This document shows positions 19,702 through 23,262 of a DNA stretch of 64,000 nt, piece by piece. The notes beneath the pieces were generated by a model. The model was not told where the DNA came from and did no database searches. It saw only the letters and a list, made by a program, of their open reading frames with translations. The position numbers were made by a program, and so were the translations under genes. Source of the DNA: Leucosporidium creatinivorum. Its lineage: Eukaryota; Basidiomycota; Microbotryomycetes; Leucosporidiales; Leucosporidiaceae. The number at the start of each line of letters is the position of its first letter. The first letter of the stretch is position 1. The stretch lies in NCBI GenBank assembly GCA_001600635.1, contig BCKL01000006.1:372001-436000 (forward strand). The letters are read 5' to 3'.

Positions 19702-20303
19702 ATGGGAGGACACGGAGGATACCGTGAGTGACAGACCTATCGCCCTACAATACAATACTTAGCTGACCCTTGCCGCCTAACAGAACCCGTCAAGGTGCGC
19801 CTCAGCAGCTCAGCGCCAATGGCCTCCCCTCGCTGATCATAGGCTGACCCTCTTCAAACAACAGCTTGACCCCGGAGTAGAGAGCTGGAACTACATGGTA
19901 AGCTACAGCTCACTGCTATACCGTCATACAGCCAGCTGACGCCCTGCTCGTCTCCCCCCCAGCGCGAGAATGTGTGGAAGCACTTCAGGTTCACCAACAG
20001 GACCGCTCGCCTCTCACTGCTATGGGGAGTTCTCGTACCCATCGGAGTCTTCACCATCTGCCAAAAGCAGGACGTACGTCTTAGCTCGCTCGCTCTCTCG
20101 TACAGCTTCAACGGCGCCTCATTTGCTGACCTCTCTCTCGCTTCCCTGGCTGCACCTCTTTACTATCTCCACCTGATACACCGCTACAGCTCAAGTGGGA
20201 CATTCTCGGAGCCAAGAAGGATGCGCCTCTGGCCCGCTGGGGAACCTACGCCGTTCCACCAAGCGAGCGCAACGCCCCGGCTGCCGACGCCGATGAGGAG
20301 TAG
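19702..20303 (+). CDS. Complex I B15-like accessory subunit (NDUFB4 family)
   Basis: Small mitochondrial inner-membrane accessory subunit of NADH:ubiquinone oxidoreductase, by resemblance to fungal B15 proteins. About 96 residues from five exons: MGGHGGY; then an 11-nt micro-exon (19784-19794); then LDPGVESWNYM (19865-19897); then RENVWKHFRFTNRTARLSLL with one hydrophobic helix (LLWGVLVPIGVFTI); then LKWDILGAKKDAPLARWG. The order LDP...W..M, YFR-like KHFRF, one membrane segment and a KWD..AKK motif fits the fungal family. It diverges from the FRA10AC1-like gene with about 130 bp between starts. Short length and few fixed residues make the family call less certain than the gene model. Confidence 0.75.
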
Positions 20304-20675: not shown

Positions 20676-23262
20676 ATGGCTGCTGCTCTCTCACCGCCGC
20701 CCAACTTTCCTCTACCACCTACGCCAACTTATGAGGCTAGCGAGAAGTACGACCATGCAGCAGCAGAAGTAGCAGCTGAGTGAGTTCGGTTGGAACGGTG
20801 ACAGGCGCAACAGGGCCTCTGTACAGCTCTGGTTGACCTCTTGACATCGCTACAGAGATCGGCAGGGCTCTGATGGAGAAGGAGGCTCGCCTCGACTCGA
20901 CGGCGGGGTTGAGGACGCAGGTAAGGGCGATGGGGTGGCACCATGGCAGGCAGAGGACTGTTCAGCTCACGCATCTTCGTCTACAGACTCCTCCGACTCC
21001 GATGTAGATCCCAACCCCTCGCCCCGTCGCCCTCTGTCGACTGCTGCCTCGAGCACCGCTCCGCCGACGCCTCGAACGGTCGCAGCCTCGGCAGCAGCTG
21101 CTAGCTCGACCTTGCGACCCGTGAAGCGGCTCTACGTCGATTTGGCAGATTGGGCACCTCTCTCGGACCCTTCCAAGCTCGCCGCGACTCCCCATTACGC
21201 CCACTTGCCCCCTCCCCCTGCCTCGCCAGCTCGGTCGTCGAGCGCTAAATCGACTCGCACAGTCACTGCAGCTCAACCCACCTCGCTCCCTCATGATCAA
21301 CTCACTCCTCTCCAGCTCTCCATCTCCCATTCGCTCAGTCACCTCCTCTCCCTTCCCGTCTTCTTGGAGTACCTCGCAACTCCCCAAGGCTACTCGGCGT
21401 TCCATGGCTACCTCACGACACATGCTGCCTCCCCCTCCACTTCAGCCTCGGCGCTCGAACTCTGGCGAGACCTCCAAGTTCTCAAGGACATCTCCCTCCG
21501 AGCTGGTGTCGCCTCCAGGGGCGTTCGCGATATCTACCTCGTCCCCGAGGCGTCGAAGCAGGTCGAGCTGCCTCTGCCGGCGATGAAGGATTTGGTGGTG
21601 GGGCTGCGAGGGATCATCAATGGTGCGACTGGGTTGGAGAAGCCGTCGAGGGAGCTGTTGCACCAGCTATTCGCTTCCGAGTTTGAGGTGAGCTTCAGCG
21701 CCGAGAAGCTGACGGGGTTGTGCTGACGCTCTTACATACACAGAGCTTTGTAAAGTATCAGCTGCTGCGGTATACAAGCGTGCAGCTCGGCAAGTTCAAC
21801 CTCGATGGTACGGACAGCAAAGGATTGTAAGGCGCCGCTCTTCGGCGATGCTGTTCGAGCTCGTGTCGCTGACATACCGCTACGTGACAGAGGAGAGGCG
21901 TTCGTCTTGACCAATCCTCGACTTCCCGACCAGCCCATCGTCCTCGCCTCGCCTGCTTTCTGCGCTCTCACGGTGAGACGAGTCGTTAACGAACTCCGAG
22001 CGAGCGCTGATTCTCGTTCTGCAGGGCTACGCGCCGGACATGATCATCGGTCGCAATTGTCGCTTCCTACAATCCGAGGCTACTGCTCCCGCTAGCGTCA
22101 AGACGGTCAGGGAGGCCCTCGACAAAGGCGAGGAGGTCACCCAGCTGCTCCTCAACTTCCGACTCGATGGAACACCGTTCTGGAACCTCCTCTGCTGCAT
22201 CCCCCTCAAGAACTCCATTGGAGAGCTTCTTTATTTCATCGGTGGACAGACCAATATCACGGGCTCCATCGCCTCCGGCTCGGGCACCGACCTCTCCTTC
22301 ATCCTCGGCGGCGACGGAGCGGGCGTCTCCTCTTCCCCCGACCTCGACCCTTCCGTCTTCTCGCCCGACATTCGCTCCTACAAGAGGTCATACCATGGCG
22401 ATCTCGACTTTGAGCTGGCACCCCCAACGCCCTCGATTGCTCCTTCACTTCACGAGTCGAGCCAGGACTCGGTCGTTCGCCCGCCGCCAGTCGCCGAGAG
22501 TGGCGGATCGCTGGGCAAGAGGTTTTTGGGAGCGTTCAGGAAGAAGTCGAGCCCGAGTCCAAGGGTCGCTATGCCTTCGTCACAGCTCCTCGCTGGGGCG
22601 GAGCTGCTGAGCGGGACTTCAGCACCTATCGAGGTGAGTCGCCCACGCTCTTCCCCTTGTGGCTCAGAGCTGACCCTGGTCCATACATAGGCGCGCATCG
22701 CCGAGTTCACATCCACTTACGAGAAGCTCGTCATCTTCCAGCCTTCCAGTACGCTCGCTTTCCCCTTCTCCTCTCGCCGGAGCTAACCCCCGCCCTCCGC
22801 AGACCACGAGATCCTCTTTGTCACCTCCCCCTTCCTCCGCTACTGTGGGCTCCCCGGCACCTCCATGCGCGACGTCTACGACTCTCCCCTGCTTCACAAG
22901 GACCTCCTCACCCTGCTCGGCGGCGAGAAGGCGGAAAAGAAGGAGGCGAGGGCAAAGGTCAAGAAGGCGGTTAAGGCAAGGGAGTCAATCAGCATGCAGT
23001 GTTGTCTTCGCTTCAAGGAGAAGGGTGCTTAGTGAGTCCTTCATTGGCTTTCGTTCGGAGGCGCCGAGCTGACCTACGCCGAACTTACGCTCGCAGCGGT
23101 CAAATGCGGACTCTGCCTTCTACTCGCGGAATGATGCATCTTACACCACTCAAGGACTTGCCGGGCGAGGTCGTCGCTTACGTTGCTGTGTGAGTTCTGC
23201 TGATCTCGGCGAGAACGAGCGCCGAAGCTGACCCTTCCGTTCTCTTTCGCAGCTTCGGTTAG
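20676..23262 (+). CDS. RGS-LOV blue-light receptor with C-terminal PAS-like segment
   Basis: Predicted flavin-binding photoreceptor coupled to a regulator-of-G-protein-signalling-like domain. Domains in order over about 700 residues: a Pro/Ser/Ala-rich N-terminus; an RGS-like helical region (about 21290-21790, with LPVFLEYLATPQGYSAFHGY and LLHQLFASEFESFVKYQLLR); a LOV domain (about 21890-22260) with ASPAFCALTGY, the canonical GRNCRFLQ whose cysteine (22058-22060) would form the flavin adduct, LNFRLDGTPFWNLL, and the terminal glutamine in FIGGQTNIT; a Ser/Pro linker; and a second PAS-like stretch (FTSTYEKLVIFQPSNHEILF) without the LOV cysteine. RGS-LOV proteins are a known fungal class, with Botrytis BcLOV4 as the studied example, that moves to membranes in blue light. 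The gene ends in FG and TAG after a last tiny exon. The start is the first ATG at 20676. Confidence 0.9.

Follow-up and report, generated by a model that had tools for sequence, protein, structure and literature searches.

LOV proteins that carry an RGS domain have been reported from Magnaporthe, Botrytis and Fusarium, while Aspergillus and Neurospora are reported in the same source without them (PMC10056346). BcLOV4, from Botrytis, binds membrane lipids directly and in a light-dependent manner and serves as an optogenetic tool (PMC12941744, PMC8993538), with translocation described as complete within about one second, and clustering described as well (PMC12941744). According to one review, the suspected lipid binder is a polybasic amphipathic helix in the linker, after which comes a C-terminal domain whose function is given as unidentified; the review says of the RGS domain that it 'seems to inhibit' the binding of lipids in darkness, and it calls the unmasking of this helix 'speculated' (PMC8993538). 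MoRgs5 of Magnaporthe oryzae, with an N-terminal RGS domain and a C-terminal PAS/PAC part, is described as the only protein of this kind among the eight RGS proteins of Magnaporthe (PMC3248559). No basidiomycete RGS-LOV protein was found described in the open literature that we searched; the main RGS-LOV paper lies outside that scope, so absence is not proven.

Here we describe an RGS-LOV gene in a 64,000-nucleotide stretch of DNA from Leucosporidium creatinivorum, which we refer to as the window, and we compare its predicted product, protein A, with two paralogues encoded in the same genome and with the systems above.

Results

Gene model and domain order of protein A

The gene lies on the plus strand at positions 20676-23262 of the window and was spliced by hand into one open frame of ten exons, encoding 677 amino acids plus the stop. 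The first in-frame ATG is at 20676 and the stop codon, TAG, at 23260-23262. All nine introns are of the GT-AG type and 52-76 nt long, and the phases fit at every one of them (9/9). An initial annotation of this DNA had given the same outer coordinates, and was right in these. The order of parts in protein A is a low-complexity N-terminus, an RGS-like domain, a LOV domain, a linker with a basic amphipathic helix, and a PAS-like C-terminus, and the features are located in the window as follows.

20676-20779, 20856-20920, 20987-21687, 21744-21826, 21891-21972, 22025-22633, 22691-22748, 22803-23031, 23097-23189 and 23253-23262, plus strand: whole coding region of protein A, spliced at GT-AG borders
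20899-21009, plus strand, crossing the intron 20921-20986: acidic tract, aa 50-64, in the low-complexity N-terminus; most acidic 15-mer of A, net charge -7
21136-21159, plus strand: aa 107-114, reading VDLADWAP, an N-terminal motif that aligns with ADLANWAP in paralogue C
21358-21767, plus strand, crossing the intron 21688-21743: RGS-like domain, about aa 181-298, assigned from paralogue profiles and hhalign, with a low-confidence all-helical single-exon model
21825-22267, plus strand, crossing the introns 21827-21890 and 21973-22024: LOV domain, aa 318-426, Pfam PAS_9 E 3.1e-17
22058-22060, plus strand: codon of the adduct cysteine, Cys357 in GRNCRFLQ, conserved in paralogues B and C
22247-22249, plus strand: codon of the terminal-strand glutamine, Gln420 in FIGGQ, conserved in B and C
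22511-22546, plus strand: LGKRFLGAFRKK, aa 508-519, predicted to be a basic amphipathic helix and situated in the linker that joins LOV to the C-terminal domain, with counterparts in B and C
22691-23259, plus strand, crossing three introns: C-terminal PAS-like domain, aa 549-677, assigned by a profile-profile match to PAS and homologous to the C-terminus of B
22928-22981, plus strand: strongly basic stretch, aa 610-627, net charge +7; top charge-weighted 18-mer of A, above the amphipathic helix, with a low moment
23131-23259, plus strand, crossing the intron 23190-23252: aa 656-677, a PAS-like beta hairpin that closes the protein with FG; of the C-terminal domain, this much is still recognisable in C

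Paralogue B reads ALANWN, which is similar to VDLADWAP by eye and lies outside the alignment there. As to the surroundings of the gene, its upstream neighbour (19702-20303) is an NDUFB4-like, complex I gene (Pfam NDUF_B4, E 1e-4), a frame on the minus strand at 18668-19378 matches the Fra10Ac1 family (Pfam E 2.4e-34), and a downstream frame at 24707-25312 matches MFS transporters (Pfam MFS_1, E 1.6e-9).

Two paralogues in the same genome

When protein A was searched against its own genome (27.7 Mb in 63 contigs), 21 exon-level matches were obtained, and those beyond A itself comprised other LOV genes and two places where the match extended beyond LOV, the paralogues B and C. Spliced by hand, paralogue B has 900 aa in 13 exons, with one GC-AG intron and a long glycine-rich linker, and lies on contig C9 (locus L023, 1828-5281), while paralogue C has 606 aa in 11 exons and lies on contig C6 (676500-683500; locus L024, 1672-4384), about 0.29 Mb downstream. 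Common to A, B and C are a low-complexity N-terminus, an RGS-like region, a LOV domain, a linker and a C-terminus, and the three proteins end in YVAVFG, FVAVFG and FVAIFG. The position and phase of the last intron are identical in all three, as are those of the intron preceding the C-terminal domain in A and B.

In paralogue C only the last strands of the C-terminus are recognisable (LHVSPLIDRDGVVEAFVAIFG), most of the PAS-like domain being missing and the helix kept. The intron found at that point in C is 116 nt long, whereas the missing remainder takes up 287 nt in two exons of A, more than this intron could conceal. With three predicted copies in one genome, the known RGS-LOV family gains a new member that occurs in multiple copies.

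Further PAS or LOV-like genes were seen in the genome. One, on contig C8 near 432500 (L026), has GRNCRFLQ and a second PAS match and resembles WC-1 by eye; another, on contig C16 near 489950 (L025), reads GRNCKF; and on contig C1 near 1431500 (L004) a PAS frame is followed by a GATA-type zinc-finger-like stretch, which by eye resembles WC-2. A G+C content of 59-62%, densely placed short introns and a phenylalanine ammonia-lyase exon whose nearest PDB entry is 1t6j (E 5.7e-41), the Rhodotorula/Rhodosporidium enzyme, are consistent with a basidiomycete yeast without proving it.

RGS-like and LOV parts in one predicted polypeptide

The N-terminal RGS-like region and the LOV domain lie in one predicted polypeptide, in the same order in three genes. 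It could be argued that the two parts belong to separate genes, wrongly joined by the splice model, which was built from DNA alone: in A the joint coincides with an intron (21827-21890), and C likewise has an exon border between the RGS-like and LOV parts, the LOV-opening exon starting just after the last RGS-like helix, so that C is not decisive on this point. In B, however, a single open exon encodes aa 340-451, which begin inside the RGS-like region, take in much of that domain and extend to the first LOV strand. Together with the fitting phases at 9/9 introns of A and the recurrence of the same order in three genes, this makes separate genes scarcely credible.

The LOV domain

On its sequence, the LOV identity of aa 318-426 is beyond doubt. 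Among the best 60 of the 149 PDB sequences matched at E ≤ 1, the best solved relatives are phototropin LOV chains (8qi9, E 4.2e-32; 1n9l, E 1.3e-30). Asn389 and Asn399 are present beside Cys357 and Gln420, matching phototropin LOV, and we take these four residues to have the flavin-site roles that they have in other LOV domains. The initial annotation had proposed an intact LOV photosensor, and this held, with both NCRFLQ (Cys357) and FIGGQ (Gln420) found intact. In paralogue C, NCRFLT replaces NCRFLQ.

A diverged RGS-like domain

Searches of Pfam and the PDB with single sequences gave no indication of an RGS domain in protein A. Pfam RGS was matched neither by the whole protein nor by its RGS region at E ≤ 1, nor by the region at E ≤ 10, where DUF5932 (0.058) and DUF4973 (0.22) were listed, both below their cut-offs; phmmer found no PDB match for the region, and when the whole genome was scanned with Pfam RGS, the four places that matched all lay outside A, B and C. 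The RGS region of C alone matched no RGS chain in the PDB (0 matches, and in a second search one chance match, the HigB toxin, E 1.4). Against the spliced proteins B and C, the Pfam RGS model aligned over positions 2-112 of 117 with E 0.071 (B) and 0.0027 (C), the scores of 13.9 bits in B and 18.5 bits in C lying below the curated cut-off of 23.9 bits and A giving no match.

These misses do not refute an RGS domain, because a profile of the three paralogues finds it. The RGS-like region of A is homologous to those of B and C (pairwise BLAST E 2.9e-12 and 1.1e-11), and the A/B/C profile of the region matched 13 distinct PDB sequences at E ≤ 10, every one of them RGS (best E 0.0031). When A was left out, the profile of B and C gave five matches, again all RGS (best E 0.13). 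In hhalign, the region aligned with six RGS rows at a probability of 88.0 over 111 columns, a score that 0 of 100 column shuffles reached. Protein A alone scored 6.6 bits against an RGS profile of five rows from which B and C were absent, the shuffles scoring 3.1 at most (0/500 reaching the observed value), with the columns of that profile derived from an alignment that had included A. On the strength of these profile comparisons we accept that protein A contains a putative RGS-like domain, too far diverged for Pfam. A single-exon model of the part was all-helical, with a mean pLDDT of 48.8, too poor for fold searches to count. The RGS-like domain that the initial annotation had placed before LOV was thus borne out through the paralogue profiles (13/13 PDB matches) and not through Pfam of A; more generally, a Pfam search of the spliced protein recovered the LOV domain (PAS_9) and missed the RGS and C-terminal PAS assignments, both of which came out with profiles.

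Residues which we take to be Gα contacts are missing from this domain. In a joint alignment, the Glu-Asn motif was present in 5/5 comparison RGS rows and in 0/3 of the paralogues A, B and C; the Asp and Arg of the last RGS helix were present in 4/4 rows covering the position and again in 0/3 paralogues; and the position equivalent to RGS4 Asn128 was Asn in three of the five rows and in none of the three paralogues. In A, Glu-Asn is replaced by Ser211-Ala212, the Asn128 equivalent by Glu250, and the equivalents of Asp163 and Arg167 by Ser287 and Ser291 (RGS4 numbering, with the contact roles of the Glu-Asn, Asn128, Asp163 and Arg167 positions taken to be those of canonical RGS domains). This count left out one RGS row, L028, an RGS gene of the same genome that scored 45 bits in the Pfam RGS genome search; it also lacks the Glu-Asn motif, so the loss is not special to RGS-LOV proteins. 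Since the joint alignment spans distant sequences, the missing contacts are evidence against GAP activity and not proof. Among the folded parts, of which there are three, conservation is also lowest in the RGS-like domain, with pairwise identities of 25, 26 and 30% versus 61% for each pair in LOV and 38% (A-B) in the C-terminus. We consider that the RGS-like domain is probably a structural clamp or a protein-binding module, not a strong Gα GTPase-activating domain.

A basic amphipathic helix in the linker

Of the 667 11-mer windows of protein A, the one with the greatest hydrophobic moment is LGKRFLGAFRK (aa 508-518), in the linker; its net charge is +4, and its counterparts at the same place are FGGVGKTLRKV in B and FKGLLRALTGK in C. 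When the linkers were shuffled, the observed moment at a net charge of at least +3 was reached in 13/2000 shuffles for A, 1/2000 for B and 58/2000 for C, whose helix is the weakest of the three and only weakly above chance; the criterion was fixed after the helix in A had already been seen. In both B and C a different 11-mer of the protein slightly exceeds the moment of the helix, and when windows are scored with charge weighting, A and B both peak in the basic stretch of the C-terminal domain, not in the helix.

As a sequence feature, protein A therefore has what is described for BcLOV4, a polybasic amphipathic helix between LOV and the C-terminal domain. This predicted helix was absent from the initial annotation, whose membrane branch it strengthens. 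The acidic N-terminal tract was also considered as a mask for the helix. The net charge of the N-terminus is -6 in A (with the tract at -7) and -7 in B, but 0 in C, and masking by the tract was therefore not adopted.

The C-terminal PAS-like domain

The C-termini of A and B are homologous (pairwise E 2.3e-13). No Pfam family matched the C-terminal segment, and PDB sequence searches with it gave five chance matches (E 1.2 or worse) and, in a second search, none. A LOV-only profile, which is too narrow, aligned with the C-terminus over 20 columns at a probability of 14. The single C-terminal sequences of A and B scored 3.6 and 2.3 bits against a PAS profile, the value of A being reached by 1/50 shuffles and that of B by 0/50. 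The only clear PAS test is the profile-profile comparison with 196 PAS domains, taken from prokaryote loci (8 of the 30 seed loci were dropped for a stop in the extended stretch). There, hhalign aligned the A/B C-terminus with PAS at a probability of 83.7 and a score of 32.3 over 96 columns, which 0/200 column shuffles reached (best 18.0); the reversed alignment scored 11.2, the RGS alignment 14.1 and the LOV alignment, as positive control, 133.7. A single-exon model of the C-terminal part contained helices only, single-exon folds being poor. By eye, the basic stretch at aa 610-627 lies near the expected F-alpha helix of PAS, and the C-terminus of B has a +5 stretch.

The initial annotation had described this part as an extra, cysteine-less PAS-like C-terminus. 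Its PAS-like character stood (probability 83.7), as did the lack of the LOV adduct motif, NCRF being absent from the aligned C-termini of A and B; the segment in A does contain cysteines, namely Cys582, Cys634 and Cys635, so that 'cysteine-less' applies to the adduct position alone. Nor is it an extra, since BcLOV4 is itself described with a C-terminal domain after the polybasic linker helix (PMC8993538).

Discussion

We think it likely that in protein A we have a fungal RGS-LOV photoreceptor with the mode of action of BcLOV4, light-gated membrane binding. Darkness would be the masked state, with the basic amphipathic helix covered by the RGS-like domain and by the PAS-like C-terminus or, at a minimum, the terminal hairpin of the latter. 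Blue light would form a flavin adduct at Cys357, and the change would be relayed via Gln420 to the element after the LOV core, releasing the helix to bind anionic plasma-membrane lipids within seconds; on return to the dark, the helix would be masked again. What the sequence shows is the gene model, the order of the domains, the intact LOV residues, the helix as a sequence feature and two paralogues built alike; that protein A binds flavin, runs a photocycle, masks its helix and binds membranes, and what its RGS-like domain does, we infer.

The initial annotation had left two outlets for the light signal, G-protein signalling or membranes. The membrane branch gained from the basic helix in A, B and C, while the G-protein branch emerged weaker, with the contacts absent and the RGS-like domains only 25-30% identical. 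In its full form, this second branch would make A a light-controlled G-protein regulator, an active RGS GAP for Gα brought to or released at the membrane, through which light would dampen Gα and cAMP signalling. The genome does encode Gα proteins, at about 11 places grouped from 42 exon-level matches on contigs C3, C4, C12, C15 and C23, and the RGS domain of MoRgs5 alone was reported to bind MoMagB and MoMagC in yeast two-hybrid, deletion of the gene raising cAMP 2.2-fold (PMC3248559). In the same report, however, all Magnaporthe RGS proteins bound MoMagC, 8/8 deletions raised cAMP, the other seven also doing so to some degree, and the MoRgs5 deletion had no visible phenotype, its authors allowing for a G-protein-independent role of MoRgs5 (PMC3248559). 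Against it also stand the absence from A, B and C of the Glu-Asn motif found in 5/5 rows and of the last-helix Asp and Arg found in 4/4 covering rows, and a paralogue identity in RGS well below the 61% of LOV. We regard such a regulator as unlikely. With the Gα-contact motifs missing from 3/3 copies, light-gated membrane binding appears better supported than direct G-protein control.

The light response might alternatively be self-association, that is clustering or dimerisation via the LOV and PAS-like domains with membrane binding as a secondary effect, and PAS domains often dimerise. Clustering of BcLOV4 at the membrane in light has indeed been reported (PMC12941744). Paralogue C speaks against this, having lost most of the PAS-like domain and still carrying the basic amphipathic helix, so that at least one copy does without the PAS core; we hold self-association as the primary response to be rather improbable. 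Neither the G-protein reading nor the clustering reading need exclude membrane binding.

Going beyond light-gated membrane binding as such, RGS-LOV proteins might be three-part electrostatic switches, composed of an RGS-like clamp freed from Gα, a LOV sensor, and a basic helix whose C-terminal latch derives from PAS. The PAS core would be optional in such a switch, and only the FG-ended beta hairpin would be needed with the helix. This is a tentative proposal, and one that we would sooner doubt than adopt. If it were true, the three paralogues would amount to a deletion series made by nature, its members perhaps adapted to different membranes or intensities of light, and the C-terminal domain of BcLOV4, of unidentified function, would be suggested to be a degenerate PAS.

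The more interesting part of these findings lies beyond positions 20676-23262, in the three predicted copies, in a C-terminus assigned to PAS in two of them, and in a copy that naturally lacks the bulk of its C-terminal domain. As a set of diverged proteins, one of them so reduced, the three are candidates for new optogenetic tools. They also offer a direct route to learning what restrains the helix in darkness and whether the RGS part still touches Gα, which is of value given that the role of the RGS domain in BcLOV4 is described tentatively in the review cited (PMC8993538).

Among known systems, the LOV domain of A has phototropin LOV1 (1n9l, presumably from Chlamydomonas) among its best solved relatives (E 1.3e-30, among the best 60 of 149), and phototropin differs from A in having a second LOV domain and a kinase and no RGS domain. 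RGS domains, including those of RGS16, RGS10 and RGS17, are the sole kind of protein that the A/B/C profile matched in the PDB (13/13), and canonical RGS domains differ from A, B and C in the Gα-contact motifs, which are missing in all three. By description, MoRgs5 and LovB of Fusarium fujikuroi are like A in combining an RGS domain and a PAS/LOV part in one protein (PMC3248559, PMC10056346); the RGS domain of MoRgs5 binds Gα in yeast two-hybrid (PMC3248559), whereas the RGS-like domain of A is known from sequence alone. The comparison with BcLOV4 that the initial annotation had drawn is supported by the order RGS, LOV, polybasic amphipathic linker and C-terminal domain, in which the two proteins are alike as compared by description only (PMC8993538). 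They differ in that the genome of A holds three copies, that the RGS-like domain of A lies below Pfam detection, and that the C-terminal domain appears PAS-like in A and B and is reduced in C.
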